Program-made: the position numbers and the translations under genes | Source: Siphonodentalium dalli | Lineage: Eukaryota; Mollusca; Scaphopoda; Gadilida; Siphonodentaliidae | Direction: 5' to 3' | DNA: 64,000 nt | NCBI GenBank assembly: GCA_032622095.1 | Contig: CP136067.1 | Span: forward strand, 75,046,705 to 75,110,704 | Notes under the pieces: generated by a model | The model's database searches: none | What the model saw: the letters and a program-made list of their open reading frames with translations, nothing else | Told to the model about the DNA's origin: nothing | Shown here: positions 7,816 through 64,000 of the stretch, piece after piece | Layout: each line of letters opens with the position of its first letter | Position numbering within the stretch: position 1 is the stretch's first letter

Positions 7816-8025
7816 TTGTCAAGAGATATGGAAGGCCTGTTCAAAAATAGTGGTCACAGTGTGCAGTCAAATATAGTTTCTTCTGATATACAAGAAAATG
7901 CAGTTAGTAGCACAAGACTTTTCAGGATCCTACCAATACTGACATCTGACAAGGGTTTTAGTACAGACTCATCGACTGACATAAACAACTCAAAATCTCG
8001 CTCTGTGCCTGGCACATGTAGCTGA
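7816..8025 (+). CDS. Hypothetical ORF, possible terminal exon
   Basis: I do not recognise this serine-rich frame, which could encode up to about 69 residues and stops with TGA at 8023-8025. It begins after an AG-rich stretch that could supply a splice acceptor. AATAAA-type signals follow near 8290. It lies outside the repeat families I could identify, so it could be the last exon of a host gene. There is no domain, no matching upstream exon and no second copy to confirm it. It may be chance. Confidence 0.2.
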   Translation: MSRDMEGLFKNSGHSVQSNIVSSDIQENAVSSTRLFRILPILTSDKGFSTDSSTDINNSKSRSVPGTCS

Positions 8026-8956
8026 TATATGTGCGCAGCAACATTTCGTTTAAACTAAGAATATTTAGCCAATATATAGCATCATGAACAGAGGAGCACC
8101 TGGAAATTTCTTTGAAACATCTGTATCTTCATGGAGATATGATAGCCAGGTGTCCTCGAGATCTTAGTCCAACCCACTAGATTGATTGATACATCTCAAT
8201 ATGTAAAACCCAATTATCATCTTTTATCGAACGAATGTGTTTATGATGTTCATGTATCATATTATAACGTCTAATATATACGCAGTTGTAAATAAATAAA
8301 TACTTCATTATTGGTGGAACGGATTAATCGCGATAAACAGAATGACAATTGACAAGGTGAGCCACTACTTATATTCCATGACTGTAATAATCATGTTTTG
8401 TGATGCTATTTGAATATACAATTTATGAGAAAATGTATAACACTTTAAGCAAGAGCATTCTCTATTCCCAACAAATATCCACAGCATACATTAACCTGGG
8501 CAACGCCGGGTAACCCTGCTAGTCTAACATATTCCATACCACTTATGTTATTCTACTGGAGCAGCTTAGTTCTATTATACTAAAACTAGGTGAAACAGGC
8601 TCCCTTTGGGAGCCTACATTCAGCATCGGAGATACCTGTGGCCCCCTTTGTTGGACTTCGCACACATTTTGATCTTAGACAGAGCCTTCATTTAGAGGTG
8701 GCCCCTTTGTGCGCTTCAAGCACAATTGGTCATTGAAACATTTTGATTTATATATATTGTTTTAATATACTTTTTTTTAAAGATGGAATTCCTTGCTCAA
8801 TTTAACAAAACCAATTTTATTTTATTTTTGTTTAATTAAAAATTTTGAAAAACTAATACCATTATAACATCCGCCAGGGTACCACGAGTCACAACACCAA
8901 ATTTGGTTGAACTCGGTCCAGGGTTCTGAGAGAAAACTACGGACATTTATATATAT

Positions 8957-25180: not shown

Positions 25181-26310
25181 ATGAGATAAGCAAAGTTATT
25201 AGATGAGAAACTGAAACTGTAAGTATTGGAAGTATTGGAAGAATACGGTATAAGAGGGCAACTACATACATGGCTAACATCCTTCCTCACCAAAAGAAAA
25301 ATGAAAGTAGTACTTGAAGGCCACAGTTCCACCGAGGTAGACGTGGACTCCGGAGTACCGCAGGGAACAGTATTGGGGCCTCTCCTGTTCCTTTGCCATA
25401 TTAATGACTTACCGGACACAGTGTCATCAACAGTACGACTCTTCGCAGATGACTGTCTGCTATACAGACAAATAAACTCCATCAAAGACCAGGTCATACT
25501 CCAACACGACTTAAAGAGCCTTGAGACATGGGCAAAAAACTGGGGCATGACATTCAACGCCAAAAAATGCTACGTGATGAGTCTAAAAGGAAAACACAGC
25601 AAATACTACACGCTGGATGGCGAAATACTCAGCCAAGTCAACACCAACCCATATCTTGGTATCCAGATTTCTAAAGACCTGAAATGGACATCACAGGTGA
25701 ACAACACGGCCAAGAAAGCTAGTGCCACACTCGGTTTTCTCAGAAGAAACCTGAAGTTTATGCCAGAAAAATCCAAGAGAACTGCCTACATATCATTAGT
25801 AAGATCAATAATGGACTATGGAGCTATAGTTTGGGACCCCTACCAGCAGAAAAATATTCAACGAAAGGCAGCAAGATTCATCACTGGAGACTACAGGTCA
25901 AGAGAAGATGGCAGCATGACGAGAATGTTGAAAGAACAACAATTACCAACACTTCATGCTGTCGAAAAACACAGCGCCTAACCTACTTTTATAAGGTGGC
26001 AGAGGGTCTGGTACCGGCTATACAAACAAACAACTTCCTAACTAAGGCTAAGGCAAGGAGGAGAATCAAACCAAAACAATTCAAGGACCATCAAACAACA
26101 AATATCCTTGAGAGGAGAGAGACGAACAATAATAAGTGCTTTGAAATACCATCAACATCCTGTGACCAGTACAAACATTCATTCTTTGTGGACACAGCAG
26201 TGTACTGGAACAAATTACACCAAGACGTTGTTGCACTAAACACACCAGAAGAATTCGCAGCTGCGCTATCAGAAACATCTGCAGCAGCTGTTGGCGCCGC
26301 GCAATAACAT
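25180..26310 (+). mobile_element. 5'-truncated LINE
   Basis: The unit begins inside the RT domain, after the first catalytic motif, and ends after the polyprotein stop near 26307, followed by a short 3' region. I could not fix the ends or a target duplication. The RT type resembles the Jockey/CR1/RTE-X group; I cannot place it further by eye. Confidence 0.8.
25226..26307 (+). pseudogene. LINE reverse transcriptase, C-terminal part, one frameshift
   Basis: The first frame (25226-25981) has the RT motif SGVPQGTVLGPLLFLCHIND (about residues 42-61) and the catalytic FADD box (about residues 73-76, FADDCLLYR). The thumb segment PYLGIQISKDLKW follows, then a LVRSIMDYGAIVWDP segment. Near 25975-25982 the frame shifts, and the typical LINE C-terminus (YFYKVAEGLVPA and on) continues in the next frame to 26307. 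The first RT aspartate and the endonuclease are missing by truncation. Truncation plus frameshift means it cannot act in cis. Confidence 0.88.
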
Positions 26311-28676: not shown

Positions 28677-29036
28677 GTACACTCCCGAACAGTCGTAATT
28701 TTTGTTTTGTCGAAAAATTGAGCGCACGGCCACGAGAGTGCGTCGAAATAAGACGCCGGCGTCGAATTTTCAACGTAAAATCGGGGTGTTACGAATTATA
28801 TACACAGTAGTCAACATTTTAATGCTATTACTTAAAACAATTGATATAATTATCGCGATTTCATCGTTTAATTTCAACGAAAAATTACCGTTTTCTGCCC
28901 AAAAAATCGACGCTTCCTGAACACTATAAATAACCGGTGTTCAATGCGCATGCGTAAGACTAAAACCTTACTTATTTGACAACCATACTTATATGTCAGA
29001 ACACCGGGATCACTGCGGATTTGCATACTCTAACTG

Positions 29037-29077
29037 GGTAGACGAAGATGGCAATCAGTTGAGATGCGGTTACGAAA
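29037..29077 (+). repeat. Left terminal inverted repeat
   Basis: 41 bp starting GGTAGACGAAGATGGCAATC and ending GCGGTTACGAAA. It matches the reverse complement of 34600-34640 with two mismatches. Confidence 0.85.
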
Positions 29078-29584
29078 TTTTATCTGCGATTACGTTATGG
29101 GACCGGAGACTCCCAGGTAGCGATATTGGCATTAACGAACTATCGTTTTGAAGTTTAATGGCGGACTTTTACGAAAGTGTCTCGACTGCGTTGTATTTTG
29201 CCGTCATCACATTATTATTGCAATGATGATTATGTGCAGTTTATTTTAACTTTTGCACTGCAGCGTAATGGTAAGTTAGGTGTTTGTTGTTATTTATTAT
29301 ACGATTATTTATTATTTTATGACAGCGATAATCCGATTGTTAGCAAAAACAAGGTCAAACTCAAACTTTGAATTGTGTAGTAGATTTGGCAGTCCGGCTG
29401 AAGTGCGCATGCGCGGGATAACACCGGCAGAGATAATTACCACGCCGACCAACAATCACTACGACCTGCTTGCTCGATATAAATCCATCAGCATCAGCCG
29501 GCCAATGACAACAATCGACGGACACTCTCTACGACGACTTGCGGGGGATACGGCACAACATATACTTGTGTAAGTCTACTTTAG

Positions 29585-31084
29585 TGGCGTCGTCGACAGG
29601 ATTGGATTAACACTCAACGAAGCGACACAGAAATTCAGTTGATTTTCCGATGGTTACTGTGGAAAGAAGAGCCGACCGAGGAGATCCTGTTCCGATCGAG
29701 CCCAGAAGCTAAAAACTACTGGATCAATCGAAAACGATTCCTCATGAGGGATGGGCTCATTCACCGCAAACGCCGGGACGGGACACCGGTCTTGTGGATC
29801 CCACAGGCTTACCGGCAAGAACTCTTATCCCTTTGCCATGACTCTCCAGTGAGCGGCCATCAAGGATGGTCCCGAACTAAAGAGAGGTTAAAAACGCAGT
29901 ATTACTGGTACCACATGAGTACAAAGGCGGAAGAGTTCGTGAAGTCGTGCCGAGAATGCAACCTGCACAAGAAGCCTTCTAGAAAGGCACGATACCCTCT
30001 GACCATCTATCAATCCGGGGCGCCAATGGAAAGGATCCATATTGATTTCATTGGCCCGCTAACCAAAACCGCGGATGGGAACGAACACATCTTAATGATG
30101 GTGGAACAATTCACCAAATGGGTTGAATGTATACCGTTGCCATCACAGACGGCAGAACAGACGGCAACAGCTGCGGTGATAGGATTTTTCTGCAGATTTG
30201 GTTTTCCGCTACAAATATTCTCGGATCAAGGCAGAAATTTTGAGAGTGCAGTATTTACGCAGATGTGTGAAATGTTACACATTCATAAAGCAAGGACAAC
30301 CCCCTATCACCCCTCTAGTAATGGGCAAGTGGAACGCTACAACCGGACACTGATGGATGCGGTTCGCTGTTTCGTATCCAAGAAAAGCAATGACTGGGAT
30401 AAACATGTTCCCCTCGTCGCCAGCGCAATGCGTTCCTCCTTAAATCGGAGAACGGGATACACCCCGAACCGACTAATGTTGGGAAGAGAGGTAAACCATC
30501 CAGCAGATATAGTCTTCAAACCGCCTTCCGTGAGGGCTGACAGCTACTTGCCAGAGTATGTCCAAACTTTACAAGAGGGACTAAGGGAAGCACATGCAAG
30601 TGCCCGTAAATCACTGGAAACCACACAATATGTGATGAAGAGGGACTATGACGTGAAGGCCAAGATCGTCCAATACAAACCAGGGGATGCGGTTTACCTA
30701 TTGGACCCAAGCATTAAAAAAGGGCAGAGCAAGAAACTCTGTCCAGTATGGAAGGGGCCGGGCCTAGTTTTAGACCAGGTGATGCCATACATATTCCGGG
30801 TACAGATGTATAGAACAATGATGACAGTCAACCACGACCGTCTGAAACCCTGTAATGACAGGGACTTGCCAGACTGGCTGAAAAAACGACGAAGGAAACA
30901 GAAAGACATTAGTTCAAAGCAAGCCACCTATTGTACATGTGGGAAGGGAGATGACGGTCGCCTTATGATTCAATGTGAAACTTGCTTCGACTGGTACCAT
31001 GCAGCTTGCTTAGGCTTGACGCAGGAAGACGTTGATAGGGTAACGAAATATCTGTGTGATTCCTGCAGAATAGGCAGGGACTAA
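29585..31084 (+). CDS. Gypsy-type integrase with C-terminal PHD finger
   Basis: The frame is open from 29585 (after a stop at 29582) to the stop at 31082-31084, and has no early ATG. The protein therefore probably begins in an upstream exon. Numbering residues from 29639: an H2C2 zinc finger (H67, H74, C104, C107), then an RNase H-fold catalytic core with D136, D196 and E232 (D,35,E spacing, all intact), then the C-terminal SH3-like segment around WKGPG (371-375). A PHD finger follows at 431-476, with CTC, MIQCETC, DWYHAAC and LCDSC. The Met before the third cysteine and the Trp before the histidine are the pattern of H3K4me3-reading PHD fingers. The integrase would cut and join element ends in the nucleus; the PHD may steer it to active chromatin. 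No internal stop is present, so this copy looks functional or young. Confidence 0.9.
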   Translation, partial: WRRRQDWINTQRSDTEIQLIFRWLLWKEEPTEEILFRSSPEAKNYWINRKRFLMRDGLIHRKRRDGTPVLWIPQAYRQELLSLCHDSPVSGHQGWSRTKERLKTQYYWYHMSTKAEEFVKSCRECNLHKKPSRKARYPLTIYQSGAPMERIHIDFIGPLTKTADGNEHILMMVEQFTKWVECIPLPSQTAEQTATAAVIGFFCRFGFPLQIFSDQGRNFESAVFTQMCEMLHIHKARTTPYHPSSNGQVERYNRTLMDAVRCFVSKKSNDWDKHVPLVASAMRSSLNRRTGYTPNRLMLGREVNHPADIVFKPPSVRADSYLPEYVQTLQEGLREAHASARKSLETTQYVMKRDYDVKAKIVQYKPGDAVYLLDPSIKKGQSKKLCPVWKGPGLVLDQVMPYIFRVQMYRTMMTVNHDRLKPCNDRDLPDWLKKRRRKQKDISSKQATYCTCGKGDDGRLMIQCETCFDWYHAACLGLTQEDVDRVTKYLCDSCRIGRD

Positions 31085-31114
31085 TTGCTGTCTTTCTTTT
31101 TCCTCTGGTTGCAG
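31085..31114 (+). promoter_or_regulatory. Strong 3' splice acceptor between the two genes
   Basis: Directly after the integrase stop lies a pyrimidine-rich tract (TCTTTCTTTTTCCTCTGG) ending in TTGCAG at 31114. The first ATG of the KptA-like gene is 17 nt further on (31132). By inference, the second protein is made from a spliced transcript that skips the integrase. A donor (GTAAGT) lies at about 29570. Confidence 0.5.
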
Positions 31115-31131
31115 GTACATGTACACGCCGC

Positions 31132-33230
31132 ATGTCATCTGAGGAGGAAGGTCTTTTAGAGGAAGGACGGCCTTGGAGGGCTCGATACAGCACAGCTGTA
31201 ACAGCCGGAACCCCAAGGTCACCTTCAAAACGGGAAGTCACCATCAGTGATGGTAAAATAGCAGCCATCTCTGATGGCGAACTAAAAGGGAAGTGACCAT
31301 CGGTGATGGTATAAACCAAGAACTCAGGAGATCACCAAGGAAGTGGGGACCAGTGAGCCTAGCCACCGACAAGGATGGTCCATCCCTAACTAAGCTTTCT
31401 AGACTGGGAGGAACACCCAAGAGAAGGGTGGTAATCACGGACAAGCCATCTCTGATGGCTTCACCAACGATCGATCAGCGGGAAGTCGGGAACCAGCCAT
31501 CACAGATGGCATTGAGACCCAAACAACCTGAGGGGGGGCAGCCATCACAGATGGCATTGAGACCCACACAACCTGAGGGGAACCAGCCATCACAGATGGC
31601 ATTGAAACCCACACAATCTGAGGAACTAGCCCAATTAGGACGGTTCCTAGTGGGCATGATGAGGCATGGTAACAATATGCCAGAAGAATGGAAAGGGAGT
31701 ATGGCGGCCAATGGAAGCTTACCCCTGGATTTGATCCTCTCCCATCCACAACTGACAGGGGTGTCTCAAGATACCATTATAGGGATGGTTGACACCGATG
31801 AAAAACAACGATGGGGTCTAGAAATGAGCCTGGAAGACACTAGCCATCCCCGATGGCTGTTGAAAGCACGACAGGGCCATAGTGACACCATGCCAGTGAC
31901 AGAGGAGGGGCTATGCCCTGCTACACTAGAGACCTGCCCAGCGGCAGTGCATGGCACATTCCACCGCCACTGGGAAAGCATTAAAGCACAGGGACTGAGC
32001 CGGCGAAAACGGAAGCATATTCACTTTGGCCACGATGATAAAGTCTTGGGAGTGGGGGCAAGAACCAACGCCGAAATACTTATGTATCTGGACGTACCCC
32101 AGTGCCTGGAGGGAAACAGAATCCCAATATTTCTAGCTGAAAATGGGGTTATCCTAAGCCCGGGAAATAGGGATGGCTTTATCCCCATGCCCTTTTTCCA
32201 CCAAGTGATTGATCGCCAGACGGGGACGACAATATGGAAACCCCTGGAACTGCCTGTCCCATCCAGGAGGGATAGCGTGGAGATGCCCATCATCGAATCC
32301 GACTCCGACAGTGAGAGGGAAGATCAATCAGTCAGTCAACAAAAGCAGCTGGAAATGCCAACTGTGATGGCAACGAGTGGGAGAGATGAAGGTGACATCC
32401 AGAAATTGCTGGGGGTGACCCAAACAGGGCAATTAGAAGAATCCATCACCCCGATGGAAGTAGATCCACCCTCGGAGTCTAGAGTAGACCCACCAACGAT
32501 AGACCCACCAACGATAGACCTCGGCAACGGAGGCGCACTAGGAGATCCATCACCGATGGACCCTAATGTGATCGGTCGACAGCTCAGAACTGAGATTGCT
32601 AGGGGAGATATCTCAAAGGAAGGGGTGGCACAGGTCATACAGGACATGACCAGCAATGAAAACCTGCTACCGGCAGCCATCCTTTTCCAGATCCTTTACG
32701 GAAGACCCGGCTTCATGTTAAAGGAAAAGGCCTTGGAGTTACTGGATGGCCAATATAGACTGGCGCTAAGATTAGAGAAGCTCTCGTGGATCGGCGCAGC
32801 GAGGCAAGAGGGAGAGTTCTATCACTCCAACACATGGAACTCTATACACCTCCAGTACACCAGCAACGATCCCATCAAGGAGGACGTGCGGCTAAGGGTG
32901 GTAGGAGGGGCAGAGAGAGTTCTCTATATGAAGGACACGGCTATGGAAACCTCATCATTTGTCATGGACCTAAAACCGGTAGAGTCAATGGAGGTAACCC
33001 CACAACCCAGCCATCCACAGAAGCCAGGGAGATCTGCGAAAGGGACTTCAGGGAAGTCACAACCAAATGCTGCACAGACCCTGACATATGGGAAGTCTCA
33101 GCCTCAACAGGCGCCTGTAAAGCGGAAACAGACTTCACCGAAGTCGCAGCAGCAGGTCTCGCAGACTTCAGGGACTTTCGTCGAACAACATATTGCTAAA
33201 TATCACGATTCGGGCAATTTTATACTATAG
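31132..33230 (+). CDS. KptA/Tpt1-like RNA 2'-phosphotransferase domain protein, one frameshift
   Basis: The first frame starts at ATG 31132 and stops at 31296 after 54 codons. The second (open from 31293) continues for 645 codons. A repeated EVTISDG-type segment crosses the break in both frames, which points to a one-base indel at the AAAAGGG near 31285-31290. Numbering from 31293, residues about 113-305 match the Tpt1/KptA family: MMRHG (R124-H125, the catalytic Arg-His pair), DEKQRW (169-174), KARQGHS (191-197), VHGTF (219-223), KHIHF (241-245), GART (255-258) and NGVILSPG (284-291). In the family signature IRAxQGHS the first Arg is Lys here. Tpt1 uses NAD+ to remove the 2'-phosphate left by tRNA splicing. 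The flanks (N-terminal PSQMALRP repeats, an unknown 425-560 segment and a Gln/Lys-rich tail) are not in known Tpt1 proteins. Confidence 0.85.
31230..31620 (+). repeat. Cluster of CCATC-N3/4-GATGG mini-hairpins inside the coding region
   Basis: ACCATCAGTGATGGT, GCCATCTCTGATGGC, ACCATCGGTGATGGT and AGCCATCTCTGATGGCT, plus three AGCCATCACAGATGGC, lie within 400 bp, with more diverged copies to about 32570. Copies fall in different reading frames (read as TISDG, PSLMA or PSQMA), so the DNA or RNA, not the peptide, is what recurs. Confidence 0.75.
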
Positions 33231-34599: not shown

Positions 34600-34640
34600 T
34601 TTCGTAACCGCATCTGAACTGATTGCCATCTTCGCCTACC
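34600..34640 (-). repeat. Right terminal inverted repeat
   Basis: TTTCGTAACCGCATCTGAAC through CTTCGCCTACC is the complement of 29037-29077 with two mismatches. It is followed by the 9-bp duplication. Confidence 0.85.
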
Positions 34641-34727
34641 CTCTAACTGCAGACCCCAAACTTCATCTGGATATTCTGGGTGAGCACTAGATGGGTATGG
34701 CAAGCCGTTTTCACATTTTCGATTTAT

Positions 34728-36795
34728 TTGGACTTAACACGTTCACTGCCGAAAACCAATGGGTAATTCCATCCCGTATGCCAACATGGGATTTGATGTT
34801 TTACCGATAGTAGATGATATTTTACGTATGTATGAGTAATGGTTCGACCAATATCGGGTCATATGATGCTGAAACATGTTATAAGACTACTACGAGATAA
34901 CTCGTAGTCGGCACCTGGGACGGAAGTTATTAGTGTTTCATCCCTGGTGCCAGCTACGAGTTATCTCGTAGGTAAATACAATTACGTTGTCAGTGTCTTA
35001 GATGACGAAGGTGCTATACATGTACAAGCATATCGTATGTAAGACATGGTAACTGAATTTATATATGATAATTGGTACAAACTACGTCGAATAAGACGTA
35101 AAAAAACATAATATGTAATTACCTACGAGATAACTCGTAGCTGGTACCAACGATGACCACTGGTGAGTTTCATCCCAGGTGCCGACTACGAGTTATCTCG
35201 TAACTAGTAGGAGCTTTATAACACGTTTCATCTTCATTTGACCGGGATTTTATCGACAAAAATTGTATAAAGCACGATAATTCCTTTATATATACACAAT
35301 GTGTCCGGGAATGGTCTAGTTGCAGATGTATATCATGGTTCATGGACTTACAGAAGAGGTCCTGGTGAATTGGAGTATCCTACCAAGATTTCTATCTGGA
35401 CCCCACCCCTTGTTCGGGCTGTGGGAATCGTTGTATCTCAAGCCATCGTAATTATACATATAAAATCGATCAATGGCATCGTTGCAGTCTGAGTAAACTC
35501 ATACCTAAATATGCATTACAACATTGAATATTATGTCTGACGGATAACATCGCTATCTCATTTCCAAGTCCTCGGGATTCCGTAATCTGATTGATTGCGT
35601 ATATTATTTTCCGTCCAATGAAACCGTATGGGTTAATAAACAAGTGTTAGTGGGCGGAGACTCCCACAATGTCACCTCTAAATATAGTAACAGATCGGAA
35701 TTTCGTCGGTATTTCTCCGATCGATAGCGATGCTTGCAAATACAACAGAGACAGAAAAAATGGCTTCGAAATTATTTGGTACGATTCGGATTAATTTGAA
35801 GGATGTGCTAGACCTGATAGATAGGCCTGCGCATGGTACCAACTTGGCCTCCCATAAATATAAATAGAACTCACTCATGTCCGTGTATTTGATTTACTTT
35901 ATTGTAACATGGTTTGCAAATCAAATTATTTGTCGTAAAAAAGTCATCTGAAAGTGAAAGTTAAACACCGAGGAAATGACTTAATTTTATGCTTTTAAAT
36001 AGTTCTAAAGCATCATTTTTGATGACGACCTTATTTTTTGCTCTCGGATGCAGCTTTCCGGTTGATGCAGCGAGTTCATCTCCCGAAAAAGAATAGTCGC
36101 ACACGACAAATATTATCTTCTGTAAGTTCATGTCGCGACACAGGCCATTGTTTGCGAAGCACAACAAATAACACGTGGGGACACCTGTCAATCACCGATG
36201 TATTTTTTTAAATCCGTGACGTCATTTTGGGGGGAGCTCTTCGCTGAATAGAAATGGTTTTGGCGACATTAGCTCCAGAACATTTCTTGCGGTTTGTGTT
36301 ATTATTTATGTGGTATGAACATTACTACGAGTTAACTCGTAGTAGCAGTCCCCATGGAACCGTTTACTACGAGTTAACTCGTAGTGGCAGTGAACGTGTT
36401 AAGTCCAAATAATTGGACTTAAGTCCAAATACCACATAATTGTGAATTCGGCGAGGAATTGGACTTAAGTCCAAATAAAATACACTTAAGTGCAAATACT
36501 GATATTTTCATCTAGATTTGGACTTAAGTCAAATTCCTCGCCGAATTCACAATTATGTCGTATTTGGACTTAAGTCCAATTCATTTGCACTTAAGTGCAA
36601 TTCAACTGTATAAGAAACACACCAATCAGATATTAAGAAGGTCCATCATTTGGACTTAAGTCCAATTAGTGGATTGATTTGGACTTAAGTCCAAAATGAT
36701 TTGATTTGGACTTAAGTTCAATTCATTTGAACTTAAGTCCAATAAGTCCAATTATTTGGACTTAAGTCCAATTCATTTGGACTTAAGTTCAAATG
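34728..36795. repeat. Cluster of CTTAAG-centred palindromes, split by a TTAA element
   Basis: About a dozen copies of TTGGACTTAAGTCCAA, or of the variant TTGCACTTAAGTGCAA, lie between 36399 and 36795. Half of one sits at 34728-34737 and its other half at 36399-36406. A longer inverted pair (TAATTGTGAATTCGGCGAGG and its complement, about 36437-36558) folds over part of the cluster. No ORF is present. See 44644-44736 for related palindromes. Confidence 0.85.
34738..36398. mobile_element. piggyBac-like TTAA element, 1661 bp, without transposase
   Basis: The perfect 13-bp inverted ends CACGTTCACTGCC and GGCAGTGAACGTG are flanked by TTAA (34734-34737 and 36399-36402). Six CTACGAG...CTCGTAG palindromes lie at 34890-34907, 34954-34971, 35123-35140, 35186-35203, 36325-36342 and 36367-36384. 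The left four form two inverted pairs with GGCACCTGGGA-type loops. No transposase is visible; the short ORFs inside have no domain. Confidence 0.88.
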
Positions 36796-38719
36796 CTAAG
36801 TAGGAACTAGATGACCTATCTGGACTTGCCATAAATGTATTTATTTTGACACATGGGCATGCATCCATGCATGGTCATTTCCCTACTTACAGGGGCGTAC
36901 GCGTAGCCTTTCTAGTATTTAAGACTGAGAACCAATTACTTTGATTCATTGTATCATTGATGAAGAACGGACGTATGAATTTGGTTCAAACTAGCGCTAA
37001 ACATATTTGTATCAAATTTCAAAAATCAATATCTAATAACTCTGAGCTTTGTTTGGTGGGTTCCTCGACCCGAATCAAATATTTTTTTAACCCCAAAGCC
37101 AAAGAAATAGTAATATAGGACCCTCTGGTCGGATTGTTGTTGTTGGAATCTGTTGAGATGGGGACCCTCTGATCGGATTGAGTACCTTTAACTATCACGT
37201 TCGATCATAACTGGCGACGGAGTATACAGGATGTCCTTCGGATGCTGATATATCAGTGAGAAATACTCAATGTTTGTTTTTATATGTCTCCGAATGGTGT
37301 ATATTTGAACAATGTTCTAGATAACGAACAACCACATAGAAGATAAATACATTTTTAATGGATCATAAAAACTATAAGTAAGAAACGCTCTTTATTCATG
37401 TCTTAATTATCGCAAAATAAAAAAAGATTATAAGAGACGCTCTTAATAATACATCGTCAATATTTCATTAGAACAAAAACGGAATTTCACAATGACATGC
37501 AATTTCGTCGGAATTCCCCCAAGAGGTTGTAACCAAGATAGGCCTACACATAATCGACAAGCAAAGAAATAGAAACGTCATGCAATATTATTATATATAT
37601 AGCGGGACAGCAAGAAGAAACCGCGATTTTTTATAATAAAGAAATAAATAAATAGTTTTTTATTAATGTTATTATTTTAAATGATTTTTAATGTTTCATG
37701 GGTTTGGTTGCTGTTAATTATTACTATAATAAAAGTGAGCACAATCCATTATTTTGACTCCATCAAATTTGGGTTGAAAATGGGTTAGAAAAGTAATTAA
37801 TTATGTGTTTTCAAATAAAGAATAAACGTCAATTTCGTTCAGTTAAAAATTTCAATATAGCTACTGTTATGTATGTCTGTATTGTCCGTGACACCTTCTA
37901 TTAGCTTCTGTAAATATGTTTCATAATTTGTATTATATTATTCGTCCAATAAAGTGTGTTAAATATTACTACAACTAAGTTAATCAAGACCCTTGTAAAT
38001 GATCCCACAATCGCGTCAATTAGTTGTTATTGTTACAACTAAATGTTCTTTCGATAATACAAAGACCAAGCTGCCAACAAGCCACAATCCCTGCACTGTC
38101 AATAGACTGGTCGAATCTTCCCAGCCGAATCTTCCCGCGACCGAAAAATACCGAGCCGAATCTTCACGCGACCGAAACTTCCCGTTCCCGAAATCGATGG
38201 TCCCGTCCGCTCTGTGTTCGAACACTCACTGTGGACCGATACGACGAAACATGATAGAGCGTTGGTTGGAACACACCTAATGTCATAGCTAAATTTTATG
38301 AAAGTTGAAGCGCGTTAAATCTCAGAAGATTTCGAAGATAATGGTCAGAATCGAATGCAATTCAATACATCAAGAGATTTAATTTGGTAAGCTACATTTA
38401 TCGACCAGTATCAGAGTGAATAAACCGTACATTTGAACACATAATCGGAAGTCGCTTACCACTAGGCGAGAAAATTCTATTTTTAGAACAAAATACTGCA
38501 GAAGAATCAAAACAATACCATAAAAAAAACAACCTATGCATTTGCCGATCGCAACTGGGCTCCATTTGAGAGAAGGATTCTTTTTATAGATAAAAACGTC
38601 CTTTGAAAGTTTGATCACTTCAGAAAATAGTTTTCTCCACAAAAATTCCCTCTTCAAAAATATCATTTTTAAATTTAAGAATAAGATATCATTTACGTAC
38701 GTTCAGATCACAGTTCGTG
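36796..38719. other. No supported gene
   Basis: AT-rich. A GACCCTCTGRTCGGATTG phrase is duplicated at 37120-37180. At about 38110-38190 CGAATCTTCCCGCGACCGAA-type units repeat two to three times. An open frame at 37999-38280 crosses these repeats and has no recognisable domain. Confidence 0.4.
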
Positions 38720-56585: not shown

Positions 56586-57538
56586 GTAAGATCTGAAACC
56601 AGTTTATCATTGAAAGAATATGTATATCAGTGTAAAGAAAAACCCATGAAAGCAAGGATCTCTAGACACAAATTTTGCTTGAATCATCAGTAAATAGTGT
56701 AACTTTAAATTCAGTGAGTTCAATCAACCTCTTGAAACTACTGAGTCATAATACTCATTTACAAATTTGATATGTGTGCATTTTTACTAATGCATTAACT
56801 CACTAAATGAAGCGTAATGCTGAGTATACATCTATTTATTTATGGTAATCATATGTGACAATTGGTTTAAACATTTAAGAAAATATGTGTCATGTGACCA
56901 ATCACAAGTGGTTCAATAGGGAGGATGGTAAATATTGCCTTCATGATATCATTCCCTTTTATCCAATACATGGATAGAACGATACAAGTGTGTGAACTGG
57001 TTAACGTTATTACACGAGTTTGTTGTGATGCGATGCTATGTACAATGAGAATGTGAGGTGAAATAACTAGTTAACCAGAGCCTGCAACTGTGTCGTTCTA
57101 TGTTTATTGCACACCCCAGAGACTGTAGATTGCAGAATACTAAAATTTATATTGGTGTTACCTTATTTAATTGAACAAATTCATAACTTAGTCATTTGCC
57201 ATCAAATATGTTGTTAACGTAATAGGTTTGTATTGCCTAAAGACAGTATCGGTACAGATTTTGTTATTGAATGTTTTGAAACCTTGAAAAACCATTATTT
57301 TGATAAAAAAAATTATTGAATGTTTGAAACCTTGAAAAACCTTTATTTTGATTATTATTCTATTATTAAAAATGCCCACAACATAGTTGAAGGAAGATGT
57401 GAACTGTCTCTCATAGCAAGTTTCTTTCACTAGCTTTACGCTAATGCACATTCTAGAGAATCTCTCATAGACCTTAGAGAGTATCACCAAATTTAATACG
57501 GATAGTACACAGTATTTAAGGGTTCTTGTTTATTGTAG
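56586..57538 (+). other. WDR37: WDR37 intron 1
   Basis: 953 bp between donor GTAAGA (56586) and acceptor TTTATTGTAG (57538). It is AT-rich. A short duplication (TTGAATGTTTGAAACCTTGA near 57268 and 57314) is the only internal feature I see. The minus-strand ORF there is a by-product. Confidence 0.8.
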
Positions 57539-57609
57539 GGAGAGACTTTATGATCTATTTGGTCAGATTGAGAAAGAGTTTGAGAGCATCTATGCTGACA
57601 ACATTACTC
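57539..57609 (+). CDS. WDR37: WDR37 orthologue, second coding exon
   Basis: After acceptor TATTGTAG, 71 bases complete the split Arg codon and encode ERLYDLFGQIEKEFESIYAD followed by NIT. They stop at a perfect donor (ACTC/GTGAGT at 57610). The segment L-x-x-L/D-L-F-G-Q-I-E-x-E-F-E is the conserved helix that starts the WDR37 coiled coil, which makes the identification strong. Phase is 1 at the donor. The WD40 exons must lie beyond the window, across the minisatellite. Confidence 0.92.
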
Positions 57610-57631
57610 GTGAGTATGCCACTAGCCAGAT

Positions 57632-60600
57632 AGTACTAAGGACTACACTGTAATATAACATCATATGATGTTATAGTACTAAGGACTACACTGTAATATA
57701 ACATCATATGATGTTATAGTACTAAGGACTACACTGTAATATAACATCGTATCATGTTATAGTACTAAGGACTACACTGTAATATAACATCATATGATGT
57801 TATAGTACTAAGGACTACACTGTAATATAACATCATATGATGTTATAGTACTAAGGACTACACTGTGATATAACATCATATGATGTTATAGTACTAAGGA
57901 CTACAATGTAATATAACATCATATGATGTTATAGTACTAAGGACTACACTGTAATATAACATCATATGATGTTATAGTACTAAGGACTACACTGTAATAT
58001 AACATCATATGATGTTATAGTACTAAGGACTACACTGTAATATAACATCATATGATGTTATAGTACTAAGGACTACACTGTAATATAACATCATATGATG
58101 TTATAGTACTAAGGACTACACTGTAATATAACATCATATGATGTTATAGTACTAAGGACTACACTGTAATATAACATCATATGATGTTATAGTACTAAGG
58201 ACTACACTGTGATATAACATCATATGATGTTATAGTACTAAGGACTACACTGTAATATAACATCATATGATGTTATAGTACTAAGGACTACAATGTAATA
58301 TAACATCATATGATGTTATAGTACTAAGGACTACACTGTAATATAACATCATGTGGTGTTATAGTACTAAGGACTACACTGTAATATAACATCATGTGAT
58401 GTTATAGTACTAAGGACTACACTGTAATATAACATCATATGGTGTTATAGTACTAAGGACTACACTGTAATATAACATCATATGATGTTATAGTACTAAG
58501 GACTACACTGTAATATAACATCATATGATGTTATAGTACTAAGGACTACACTGTAATATAACATCATATGATGTTATAGTACTAAGGACTACACTGTAAT
58601 ATAACATCATATGATGTTATAGTACTAAGGACTACACTGTAATATAACATCATATGACGTTATAGTACTAAGGACTACACTGTAATATAACATCATATCA
58701 TGTTATAGTACTAAGGACTACACTGTAATATAACATCATATGATGTTATAGTACTAAGAACTACAATGTAATATAACATTATATGATGTTATAGTACTAA
58801 GGACTACAATGTAATATAACATCATATGATGTTATAGTACTAAGGACTACACTGTAATATAACATGATGTTATAGTACTAAGGACTACACTGTAATATAA
58901 CATGATGTTATAGTACTAAGGACTACACTGTAATATAACATCATATCATGTTATAGTACTAAGGACTACACTGTAATATAACATCATATGATGTTATAGT
59001 ACTAAGAACTACAATGTAATATAACATCATATGATGTTATAGTACTAATGACTACACTGTAATATAACATCATATGATGTTATAGTACTAATGACTACAC
59101 TGTAATATAACATCATATGATGTTATAGTACTAAGGACTACACTGTAATATAACATATGATGTTATAGTACTAAGGACTACACTGTAATATAACATCATA
59201 TGATGTTATAGTACTAATGACTACACTGTAATATAACATCATATCATGTTATAGTACTAAGGACTACACTGTAATATAACATCATATGATGTTATAGTAC
59301 TAAGAACTACAATGTAATATAACATCATATGATGTTATAGTACTAAGGACTACACTAATATAACATGATATGATGTTATAGTACTAAGGACTACACTGTA
59401 ATATAACATATGATGTTATAGTACTAAGAACTACACTGTAATATAACATCATATGATGTTATAGTACTAAGGACTACACTAATATAACATGATATGATGT
59501 TATAGTACTAAGGACTACACTGTAATATAACATCATATGATGTTATAGTACTAATGACTACACTGTAATATAACATCATATGATGTTATAGTACTAAGGA
59601 CTACAATGTAATATAACATCATATGATGTTATAGTACTAATGACTACATTGTAATATAACATCATATGATGTTATAGTACTAAGGACTACACTGTGATAT
59701 AACATCATATGATGTTATAGTACTAAGGACTACACTGTAATATAACATCATATGATGTTATAGTACTAAGGACTACAATGTAATATAACATCATATGATG
59801 TTATAGTACTAAGGACTACACTGTAATATAACATCATATGGTGTTATAGTACTAAGGACTACACTGTAATATAACATCATGTGATGTTATAGTACTAAGG
59901 ACTACACTGTAATATAACATCATATGGTGTTATAGTACTAAGGACTACACTGTAATATAACATCATATGATGTTATAGTACTAAGGACTACACTGTAATA
60001 TAACATCATATGATGTTATAGTACTAAGGACTACACTGTAATATAACATCATATGATGTTATAGTACTAAGAACTACACTGTAATATAACATCATATGAT
60101 GTTATAGTACTAAGGACTACACTGTAATATAACATCATATGATGTTATAGTACTAAGGACTACACTGTAATATAACATCATATGATGTTATAGTACTAAG
60201 GACTACACTGTAATATAACATCATATCATGTTATAGTACTAAGGACTACACTGTAATATAACATCATATGATGTTATAGTACTAAGAACTACAATGTAAT
60301 ATAACATTATATGATGTTATAGTACTAAGGACTACAATGTAATATAACATCATATGATGTTATAGTACTAATGACTACACTGTAATATAACATCATATGA
60401 TGTTATAGTACTAAGGACTACACTGTAATATAACATCATATGATGTTATAGTACTAAGGACTACACTGTAATATAACATATGATGTTATAGTACTAAGGA
60501 CTACACTGTAATATAACATGATGTTATAGTACTAAGGACTACACTGTAATATAACATCATATCATGTTATAGTACTAAGGACTACACTGTAATATAACAT

Positions 60601-63600
60601 CATATGATGTTATAGTACTAAGAACTACAATGTAATATAACATATGATGTTATAGTACTAATGACTACACTGTAATATAACATCATATGATGTTATAGTA
60701 CTAAGGACTACACTGTAATATAACATCATATGATGTTATAGTACTAAGGACTACACTGTAATATAACATATGATGTTATAGTACTAAGGACTACACTGTA
60801 ATATAACATCATATGATGTTATAGTACTAATGACTACACTGTAATATAACATCATATCATGTTATAGTACTAAGGACTACACTGTAATATAACATCATAT
60901 CATGTTATAGTACTAAGGACTACACTGTAATATAACATCATATGATGTTATAGTACTAAGAACTACAATGTAATATAACATATGATGTTATAGTACTAAG
61001 GACTACACTAATATAACATGATATGATGTTATAGTACTAAGGACTACACTGTAATATAACATATGATGTTATAGTACTAAGAACTACACTGTAATATAAC
61101 ATCATATGATGTTATAGTACTAAGGACTACACTAATATAACATGATATGATGTTATAGTACTAAGGACTACACTGTAATATAACATCATATGATGTTATA
61201 GTACTAATGACTACACTGTAATATAACATCATATGATGTTATAGTACTAAGGACTACAATGTAATATAACATCATATGATGTTATAGTACTAATGACTAC
61301 ATTGTAATATAACATCATATGATGTTATAGTACTAAGGACTACACTGTAATATAACATCATATGATGTTATAGTACTAAGGACTACACTGTAATATAACA
61401 TCATATGATGTTATAGTACTAAGGACTACACTGTAATATAACATCACATGATGTTATAGTACTAAGGACTACACTGTAATATAACATCATATGATGTTAT
61501 AGTACTAAGGACTACACTGTAATATAACATCATATGATGTTATAGTACTAAGGACTACACTGTAATATAACATCATATGTTATAGTACTAAGGACTACAC
61601 TGTAATATAACATCATATCATGTTATAGTACTAAGGACTACACTGTAATATAACATCATATCATGTTATAGTACTAAGGACTACACTGTAATATAACATC
61701 ATATGATGTTATAGTACTAAGAACTACAATGTAATATAACATCATATGATGTTATAGTACTAAGGACTACACTGTAATATAACATCATGTGATGTTATAG
61801 TACTAAGGACTACACTGTAATATAACATCATATCATGTTATAGTACTAAGGACTACACTGTAATATAACATCATATGATGCTATAGTACTAAGGACTACA
61901 CTGTAATATAACATCATATGATGTTATAGTACTAAGGACTACACTGTAATATAACATCATATGATGTTATAGTACTAAGGACTACAATGTAATATAACAT
62001 CATATGATGTTATAGTACTAAGGACTACACTGTAATATAACATCATATGATGTTATAGTACTAATGACTACACTGTAATATAACATCATATGATGTTATA
62101 GTACTAAGGACTACACTGTAATATAACATCATATGATGTTATAGTACTAAGGACTACACTGTAATATAACATCATATGATGTTATAGTACTAAGGACTAC
62201 ACTGTAATATAACATCATATGATGTTATAGTACTAAGGACTACACTGTAATATAACATCATATGATGTTATAGTACTAAGGACTACACTGTAATATAACA
62301 TCATATGATGTTATAGTACTAAGGACTACACTGTAATATAACATCATATGATGTTATAGTACTAAGGACTACACTGTAATATAACATCATATGATGTTAT
62401 AGTACTAAGGACTACACTGTAATATAACATCATATGATGTTATAGTACTAAGGTCTACACTGTAATATAACATCATATGATGTTATAGTACTAAGGACTA
62501 CACTGTAATATAACATCATATGATGTTATAGTACTAAGAACTACAATGTAATATAACATCATTATGTTATAGTACTAAGGACTACACTGTTATATAACAT
62601 CATATGATGTTATAGTACTAAGGACTACACTGTAATATAACATCATATGATGTTATAGTACTAAGGACTACACTGTAATATAACATCATATGATGTTATA
62701 GTACTAAGAACTACAATGTAATATAACATCATTATGTTATAGTACTAAGGACTACACTGGTATATAACATCATATGATGTTATAGTACTAAGGACTACAC
62801 TGTAATATAACATCATATGATGTTATAGTACTAAGGACTACACTGTAATATAACATCATATGATGTTATAGTACTAAGGACTACACTGTATTATAACATC
62901 ATATGATGTTATAGTACTAAGGACTACACTGTAATATAACATCATATGATGTTATAGTACTAAGAACTACACTGTAATATAACATCATATGATGTTATAG
63001 TACTAAGGACTACACTGTAATATAACATCATATGATGTTATAGTACTAAGGACTACACTGTAATATAACATCATATGATGTTATAGTACTAAGGACTACA
63101 CTGTAATATAACATCATATGATGTTATAGTACTAAGGACTACACTGTAATATAACATCATATGATGTTATAGTACTAAGGACTACACTGTTATATAACAT
63201 ATGATGTTATAGTACTGAGGACTACACTAATATAACATCATATGATGTTATAGTACTAAGGACTACACTGTAATATAACATCATATGATGTTATAGTACT
63301 AAGGACTACACTGTAATATAACATCATATGATGTTATAGTACTAAGGACTACACTGTAATATAACATCATATGATGTTATAGTACTAAGGACTACACTGT
63401 AATATAACAGCATATGATGTTATAGTACTAAGGACTACACTGTAATATAACATCATATCATGTTATAGTACTAAGGACTACACTGTAATATAACATCATA
63501 TCATGTTATAGTACTAAGGACTACACTGTAATATAACATCATATGATGTTATAGTACTAAGGACTACACTGTAATATAACATCATATGATGTTATAGTAC

Positions 63601-64000
63601 TAAGAACTACAATGTAATATAACATCATATGATGTTATAGTACTAAGGACTACACTGTAATATATCATCATATGATGTTATAGTACTAAGGACTACACTG
63701 TAATATAACATCATATCATGTTATAGTACTAAGGACTACACTGTAATATAACATCATATGATGTTATAGTACTAAGGACTACACTGTAATATAACATATG
63801 ATGTTATAGTACTAAGAACTACAATGTAATATAACATCATATGATGTTATAGTACTAAGGACTACACTGTAATATAACATATGATGTTATAGTACTAAGA
63901 ACTACAATGTAATATAACATCATATGATGTTATAGTACTAAGGACTACAATGTAATATAACATATGATGTTATAGTACTAAGGACTACACTGTAATATAA
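57632..64000 (+). repeat. 43-bp palindromic minisatellite in WDR37 intron 2, continuing past the window
   Basis: The unit is AGTACTAAGGACTACACTGT followed by AAT and the perfect palindrome ATAACATCATATGATGTTAT. The period is 43 bp (agtact at 57632, 57675 and on). By length there are about 150 units, and the array is cut by the window end. Variants include shortened cores (ACATGATGTT, ACATATGATG), ATATCATG and GTGGTG cores, and ACAATG for ACACTG. Order of variants repeats at offsets of 1485 and 1653 bp, so blocks of tens of units were duplicated together. Confidence 0.98.

Follow-up and report, generated by a model that had tools for sequence, protein, structure and literature searches.

Retrotransposons are thought to live on GAG and POL, sometimes joined by an envelope protein. 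In the errantiviruses, such as gypsy of Drosophila, the env gene is a third open reading frame (ORF) that is expressed from a spliced mRNA (PMC4276936), and a Gypsy element of orchids has been described in which an extra ORF encodes an RNA-editing enzyme, an AlkB demethylase of N6-methyladenosine in RNA with demonstrated activity (PMC9289625). KptA enzymes (the Tpt1/KptA/TRPT1 family, PF01885) have been reported from selfish elements as well, namely, in the polyproteins of a few animal RNA viruses, in sawfly nucleopolyhedroviruses and in Bodo saltans virus, all of which are viruses (PMC9503650). Here we analyze a KptA domain in a 64,000-nucleotide stretch of the genome of the scaphopod Siphonodentalium dalli (C7:75046705-75110704, hereafter the window; the genome comprises 2.23 Gb in 9 contigs). 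As read from the sequence, this domain is the first half of a third ORF (ORF3) that follows POL in Ty3/Gypsy long terminal repeat (LTR) retrotransposons, an arrangement common to four families.

These elements resemble each of the known systems in part. With the Tpt1/KptA/TRPT1 enzymes they share the family score, the catalytic tetrad, the HGT motif and the NAD-contacting Arg but, instead of standing alone, the domain is embedded in a retrotransposon ORF together with a C2H2-like stretch and a TatD nuclease domain. The PHD-bearing Ty3/Gypsy elements (from Lytechinus, Pinctada and Batillaria, by source name) have the same POL, with reverse transcriptase (RT), RNaseH, integrase and PHD, and about 50% identity in the integrase-PHD part, whereas the Siphonodentalium elements add the KptA-TatD ORF. 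The errantiviruses also possess a third ORF after POL, with a spliced env mRNA there and a splice-acceptor-like site here, but ORF3 encodes KptA-TatD enzymes and not an envelope protein. The orchid element differs in its enzyme, its plant host and its recent gain of the ORF, in contrast to an ORF that is common to four diverged families. Among the open-access papers listed by our literature searches, none reported a retrotransposon with KptA, TRPT1 or TatD, in agreement with an initial annotation of the window that knew of no transposon carrying KptA; one of them, a review of retrocopies (PMC5408686), contains terms for both TATDN2 and LTR retrotransposons. Such families may already be catalogued in Repbase or in the subscription literature. 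The word stem 'transpos' is absent from the main text of a survey of NAD+/ADP-ribose functions in viruses (PMC9503650), and no KptA-type or TatD term was found in a paper on accessory domains of retrotransposons (PMC6338049) and of one on mollusc LTR elements (PMC6238403).

The KptA domain and the families that carry it

The KptA/Tpt1 domain proposed in the initial annotation is borne out by Pfam: in the 31293 frame, PF01885 matches residues 113-291 with an E-value of 5.5e-33 and a score of 114.9 bits, the cut-off being 26. The nearest solved structures are the 'tRNA 2'-phosphotransferase 1' chains 7yw3 (E = 2.3e-30; 74 of 203 aligned residues identical) and 7yw2 (E = 1.6e-28), which we take to be mammalian TRPT1; an NGVIL.PGN.DGF stretch at the C-terminus is common to 7yw3 and the window domain. 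Because chains 7kw8 and 7yw4, the latter presumably yeast Tpt1, score far lower (33.1 and 30.2 bits, respectively, versus 108.8 for the best TRPT1-type chain), the window domain looks animal in origin. The Lys at 69 in 7yw4 matches the number published for the yeast enzyme, and the numbering of 7kw8 fits RslTpt1 of the same source (PMC6333775). When aligned to these two chains with the published numbering, the Arg-His-Arg-Arg tetrad is complete in the window (R124, H125, R173, R240), and K171-x-R173 was mapped through the alignments in the same manner; H220-G221-T222 forms the HGT motif that binds NAD+ in the Tpt1 family, R240 lies 20 residues past the His of this motif, at the same spacing as Arg121 in the Clostridium enzyme, and R257 aligns with Arg137 of 7kw8, a residue tied to NAD+ use (PMC6333775).

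All eight key residues are present in each of the 12 rows of a domain alignment that consists of the window and 11 other loci (L040, which has a stop inside KptA, L041-L044 and L054-L057 were left out), and the tetrad and HGT, judged by eye, are found in 9 of 9 aligned phage and plasmid homologs, fetched from 108 matching records. The initial annotation had suspected that a Lys in place of the Arg of 'IRAxQGHS' could alter activity. Because this Arg is not among the mapped active-site residues, the doubt has no basis in the sequence: the position falls outside the tetrad, all residues of which are present, and is occupied by Cys in chain 7yw4, by Lys in one of the nine homologs (from phage, L010) and by Lys in 6 of the 12 element rows; inactivation through this change is not supported. 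Single-sequence structure predictions were low in confidence (mean predicted local distance difference test scores of 40.3 and 49.9); protein-database searches with the window ORF and with its KptA piece gave no match at E <= 0.001, and a viral contig collection contained no match to KptA, integrase or TatD.

Across the genome, KptA has at least 66 matches, whose identities span 28-100%; of these, 23 fall within frames that stay open for 800 amino acids or more. None of the weak matches was identified as the host TRPT1 gene. Twenty regions of 10 kb were fetched, covering 22 of the 66 matches; the window holds one more, and the other 43 are not among them. In 17 of the 20 fetched loci, the order is integrase, KptA, TatD. 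The exceptions are L041, without an integrase match, and the fragments L043 and L044. Two of these loci, L041 (3865-5389) and L043 (3867-4181), are internally deleted, with the LTR or the integrase start joined almost directly to the KptA region, either by deletion or by copying of spliced RNA.

The copies fall into four families, each of which was represented in a Pfam scan by a single copy: L039 for A, L045 for B, L049 for C and L050 for D. In ORF3 of A, B, C and D, respectively, PTS_2-RNA is matched with E-values of 7e-32, 2.2e-41, 8.6e-45 and 1.4e-47, and TatD_DNase with E-values of 3.1e-39, 7.3e-37, 9.5e-36 and 4.3e-36. Upstream of ORF3, all four families have H2C2, rve and PHD; RNaseH and RT are present in A, C and the upstream piece of D, and RNaseH in B. 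Read by eye, the interval between KptA and TatD contains a C2H2-like stretch, although Pfam reports no zinc finger there, and a conserved segment of the HWRAL type. The HxH, Glu, His, HxH and Asp residues of TatD (PF01026), which we take to form the metal site, are invariant across one aligned copy per family. In family D, KptA is preceded by about 660 residues with repeated 'GSGSAGIAGD' units, in the 5' part of ORF3 (L050 1991-3970).

A family C element on C5, read separately as L049 and L062, is complete and spans about 12.5 kb. Its LTRs (a 280-bp match, TGTAGAA...AACACA) are 100% identical, and the flanks share a 4-bp target-site duplication (TSD), TTAC; a purine tract, GGAGAGGGAGGAG, precedes the 3' LTR, and TGGCGACGAG, which resembles a primer-binding site, follows the 5' LTR. 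ORF1 (1029 amino acids) has a CCHC knuckle and a PNMA match below the cut-off. POL shows no stop up to the fetch border from either side, and by arithmetic the two parts share one frame, a single codon at the border being unread; it contains protease (below the cut-off), RT, RNaseH, H2C2, rve and PHD; ORF3 encodes 950 amino acids. The identity of the LTRs points to recent movement of this element. The POL order protease-RT-RNaseH-integrase was found in L049/L062 and in L050/L061, both read in pieces, with the protease match below the Pfam cut-off in L062 and above it in L060 and L061. In family B, the LTRs are 99.6% alike over 229 bp and about 10.7 kb apart, with the ends and the TSD unsettled; for L050 and L042, no LTR pair of at least 100 bp was found between the two pieces compared for each. 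That these families represent a Gypsy lineage in which ORF3 consists of KptA, a C2H2-like stretch, a conserved middle and TatD appears, from their sequences, very highly probable.

The window copy and the unit that encloses it

The copy in the window, judged from its sequence, is a broken, rearranged derivative of a Ty3/Gypsy LTR retrotransposon. BLAST comparison with family A copies identifies 29375-29583 as LTR, extending to 29598 against L041, and 29600-33184 as retrotransposon; the LTR piece matches L039 at 188-349 and again at 8265-8426, also L040, and L041 at 7986-8209 with 99% identity. An exon-1/intron model of the integrase gene, drawn from the window alone, was dropped because 29374-29598 proved to be an LTR piece. 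The frame 29585-31084 is open and carries H2C2, rve and PHD; RT and RNaseH are absent, and the TatD half of ORF3 is missing too. Compared with the two LTRs and complete POL of an LTR retrotransposon, the window thus retains one LTR piece and no RT. Together, the integrase piece and the KptA part are 93-94% identical in DNA to L038, L039, L040 and L042. The interval 31132..33230 of the initial annotation is not a single reading frame: the 31132 ATG and KptA are in different frames, that is, the window copy has a frame break where L038 and L039 read through in one frame, and although the KptA frame is open over 31275-33230, homology to L038-L042 stops at 33184. L038 and L039, two intact copies of the same family, have open frames of 1371 and 1390 amino acids; ORF3 of L039 ends in a TatD domain (Pfam), and L038 shows TatD by tblastn.

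A protein search with the window integrase gave 502 matches at E <= 0.001; among the 120 of these that were listed, the best reach about 50% identity over 97-99% of the query, and several hold RVT_1 and RNaseH in one protein. A maximum-likelihood tree of 72 rows places the window integrase in a set of eight rows (96/80), two of which have RT or RNaseH in the same protein. The window integrase is thus most likely the tail of a Ty3/Gypsy POL and not a Ginger1 transposase. PF01885 is found in none of the 120 listed matches, which is weak evidence because these are mostly POL pieces, and TatD is listed in P0099 alone. In this protein (source name Acanthaster planci), integrase-PHD and TatD form one chain with, by eye, a C2H2-like stretch in between, that is, the same type of ORF3 as in the Siphonodentalium elements, in an echinoderm and without KptA. 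The presence of TatD without KptA in P0099 suggests that, of these two parts of ORF3, TatD could have the greater age and the wider distribution. A search of a wider genome-contig collection with an integrase alignment yielded 8 loci, in which no KptA match had an E-value under 0.42.

The integrase and KptA pieces lie within a unit bounded by terminal inverted repeats (TIRs). The window contains just two occurrences of a 24-base TIR pattern (chance mean 0), and the wider genome-contig collection contains none; the termini are GGTAG (GG..CC ends). The left 124 bp of the unit (29037-29160) have at least 42 matches in the genome, the window's own counted; only 1 of the 66 KptA matches, that of the window, lies within 20 kb of one of them. 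Another copy of the TIR unit (L058, 5 kb) has 182 bp in common with that of the window, is devoid of integrase and KptA, and contains no ORF of 120 amino acids. The TIR-left end is a repeat family of its own, and Pfam detected no transposase in the scanned ORFs of the window unit. The 9-bp TSD and 41-bp TIRs fit the ranges reported for MULEs (8-11 bp for the TSD; PMC6446971), from which the unit differs in that no transposase was found inside it among the scanned ORFs. Our reading is that the TIR unit, MULE-like by TSD and TIR length, is separate from the retrotransposon and holds a rearranged piece of it, having probably moved the LTR, integrase and KptA pieces as passengers.

The enclosure of integrase-PHD and KptA by TIRs and a perfect 9-bp duplication is also what one would expect if KptA were the second gene of a Ginger-like, cut-and-paste TIR DNA transposon moved by its own integrase, and the PHD is no argument against this model because some Ginger1 transposases carry PHD fingers (PMC2836005). 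However, the TIR-left and KptA matches coincide in the window only; the GG..CC termini and the 9-bp TSD contrast with the TGTNR ends and the 4-bp CCGG/CCGT TSD of Ginger1 (PMC2836005); the integrase groups with Gypsy POL proteins that carry an RT; the TIRs enclose an LTR piece; and L058 lacks integrase and KptA. The Pfam scan of the window gave no match to the C-terminal OTU or Ulp1 protease of Ginger1, and one Ginger1 without OTU/Ulp1 has been described (PMC2836005). The unit's ends and TSD, the relatives of the integrase and the absence of these TIRs around other KptA matches lead us to reject a Ginger-type DNA transposon, a model to which we give next to no credence. The initial annotation was thus right that KptA is carried by a mobile element, but the carrier is the Ty3/Gypsy lineage rather than the TIR unit; likewise, the copies outside TIRs that would have betrayed an ordinary host gene do exist, but in the fetched loci they reside in retrotransposons, next to integrase and TatD in 17 of the 20.

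Descent, selection and the possible role of ORF3

The three conserved parts of these elements appear to have diverged together. The closest pairs are A-B and C-D, both in integrase (62% and 61% identity) and in TatD (45% each), with other pairs lower; KptA is 37% identical in A-B and 44% in C-D, but 37% in B-D too, within a range of 34-44% among families. In a FastTree phylogeny of the integrase, A+B has support 1.0 and C+D 0.994. Because integrase, KptA and TatD co-diverge, a single gain of ORF3 by families A-D is likely, although not proven.

Of the 20 fetched loci, 16 retain all eight key KptA residues, as does the window. Estimates of the ratio of nonsynonymous to synonymous substitution rates (dN/dS) for KptA within families are 0.12-0.48; a value was obtained for 10 of 14 pairs, and the remainder are one identical pair and three saturated between-family pairs. 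TatD has values of 0-0.39 in 6 of 7 pairs with a value (8 pairs in all), and the whole of ORF3, 0.08-0.49 in 8 pairs. These comparisons left out L040, L041, L043, L044, L054, L056 and L057, and made partial use of L042 (TatD and whole-ORF3 pairs), L055 (one TatD pair) and L052 (one KptA pair). The trend fits a working protein and shows signs of purifying selection. Were KptA a mere passenger, that is, a host TRPT1 copy acquired by chance and functionless for the element, its closest solved relatives would be expected among TRPT1-type chains, as is the case, and broken copies such as that of the window and some others would come as no surprise. Against this stand the four families, in which the active-site residues persist in most loci at KptA identities as low as 34-44%, the KptA dN/dS below 0.5, and the same partner, TatD, and the same position each time; we consider the passenger explanation very unlikely.

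In one copy of each family (4 of 4), a CAG or TAG, preceded by sequence rich in T or in pyrimidines, lies between the POL stop and the start of ORF3. Intact copies would express ORF3 from a spliced subgenomic mRNA, as the errantiviruses do with env, and production of ORF3 as a separate protein seems probable. Within this protein, the substrates of KptA would be nucleic-acid ends that bear a phosphate: with NAD+, it would strip 2'-phosphates from RNA ends that have been cleaved or healed, add an ADP-ribose cap to 5'-monophosphate ends, or do both. TatD would trim nucleic-acid ends in the manner of a 3'-5' exonuclease; jointly, they would process or protect the ends of element RNA or cDNA against host nucleases or silencing. 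Precedents come from related enzymes: TRPT1 ADP-ribosylates 5'-phosphorylated RNA and single-stranded DNA via the same tetrad (PMC6582358), TATDN1 and TATDN3 of humans are 3'-5' exonucleases and apurinic/apyrimidinic endonucleases on DNA (PMC10085689), and TATDN2 is described as a structure-specific RNase that acts on R-loops and is required in medaka germ cells (PMC12709183). Candidate substrates of ORF3 are the RNA of the element, the ends of its cDNA and small RNAs of the host, and we propose the end-processing and counter-defense role tentatively, at less than even odds.

The same enzymes might serve other ends. ORF3 could act in RNA repair or priming within the particle, with KptA stripping 2'-phosphates from healed ends of genomic RNA or of a tRNA-derived primer and TatD trimming, without any anti-defense role. 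Stripping 2'-phosphates is what Tpt1 classically does, and the residues that this reaction requires are exactly those preserved here (PMC6333775); an RNA-processing role has also been proposed for KptA in the RNA-virus polyproteins (PMC9503650). We nevertheless deem this role rather unlikely. A third version has ORF3 working on DNA: KptA would ADP-ribosylate the 5'-phosphate ends of cDNA and TatD would process the 3' ends, steering integration or protecting the cDNA. The activities of TRPT1 on 5'-phosphorylated single-stranded DNA (PMC6582358) and of human TATDN1/TATDN3 on DNA (PMC10085689) are compatible with such a function; however, integration uses 3' ends and nothing links ORF3 to cDNA, which makes it unlikely. 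The counter-defense role can be given a more specific and more daring form. KptA would ADP-ribosylate small silencing RNAs, or the precursors of these, at their 5'-monophosphate ends, or would cap the cleaved RNA of the element, and TatD would remove the ends that are left. In this way, the element would evade germ-line silencing by PIWI-interacting or small interfering RNAs, and a whole clade of animal Gypsy elements would be so armed. We regard this scenario as improbable speculation; if true, it would be the first retrotransposon-encoded NAD+-dependent counter-defense known to us.

Taken together, the Gypsy identity, the anatomy and the role of ORF3 as an active enzyme have, in our estimate, a probability of roughly 80%. 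Several observations weigh against this reading. ORF3 expression and enzyme activity are predicted from sequence, as are the splice-acceptor-like sites, and the window copy itself is broken. The 20 loci were chosen for high identity or long open frames and are not a random sample; 4 of them lack the full set of eight key residues (a stop occupies the third tetrad position in L041, L043 and L044 are partial, and in L056 both the Lys and the third tetrad Arg are replaced). The dN/dS values rest on small numbers of within-family changes, and one TatD pair, L048/L049, gives 1.16 on 5 changes. In the integrase tree, A+B and C+D are apart, with weak deep nodes and, P0099 being devoid of KptA, the KptA part is known from this genome only.

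On balance, a Ty3/Gypsy lineage apparently retains an NAD+-dependent RNA-end enzyme and a nuclease in ORF3 across deep divergence. Because ORF3 has been kept for so long, such elements would seem to face a problem with phosphorylated nucleic-acid ends that is worth about 900-1500 codons. The lineage offers a natural test case for a Tpt1/TRPT1 role outside tRNA splicing, and the intact, apparently recent copies make the question testable.

Features of the window

The retrotransposon piece and the enclosing TIR unit are laid out in Table 1.

Table 1. Parts of the broken retrotransposon copy and of the enclosing TIR unit, in window coordinates
Feature	Position	Strand	Remarks
Left TSD copy, 9 bp, CTCTAACTG	29028..29036	.	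read in sequence
Left TIR, 41 bp	29037..29077	+	39/41 identical to right TIR
LTR piece, 225 bp, TG..CA, Gypsy family	29374..29598	+	matches direct repeats at both ends of related copies
Integrase part of POL	29600..31084	+	H2C2 29798-29974, rve core 30020-30313, PHD finger 30932-31066 (Pfam)
Pyrimidine tract and CAG, 3'-splice-site-like	31088..31114	+	just past POL stop; sequence only
ORF3 N-terminal piece (MSSEEEG...)	31132..31296	+	frame differs from KptA part
KptA half of ORF3, truncated	31275..33184	+	frame continues to 33230 without family homology
KptA/Tpt1 (PF01885) domain	31629..32165	+	R124, H125, K171, R173, H220-G-T222, R240, R257; residue 1 = GTG 31293
Right TIR, 41 bp	34600..34640	-	39/41 match to left TIR
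Right TSD copy, 9 bp	34641..34649	.	perfect duplicate of left

Elsewhere in the window, an RT piece (25226-25981; RVT_1, E = 9.9e-17) belongs to a different, probably non-LTR, element. Short palindromic repeats (TTGGACTTAAGTCCAA), arranged both directly and inverted, cluster at 36400-36800, and a large tandem array with a 43-bp period extends over 57481-63814, many of its copies being 90-100% identical near 57.6-58.9 kb, with inverted stretches further right.

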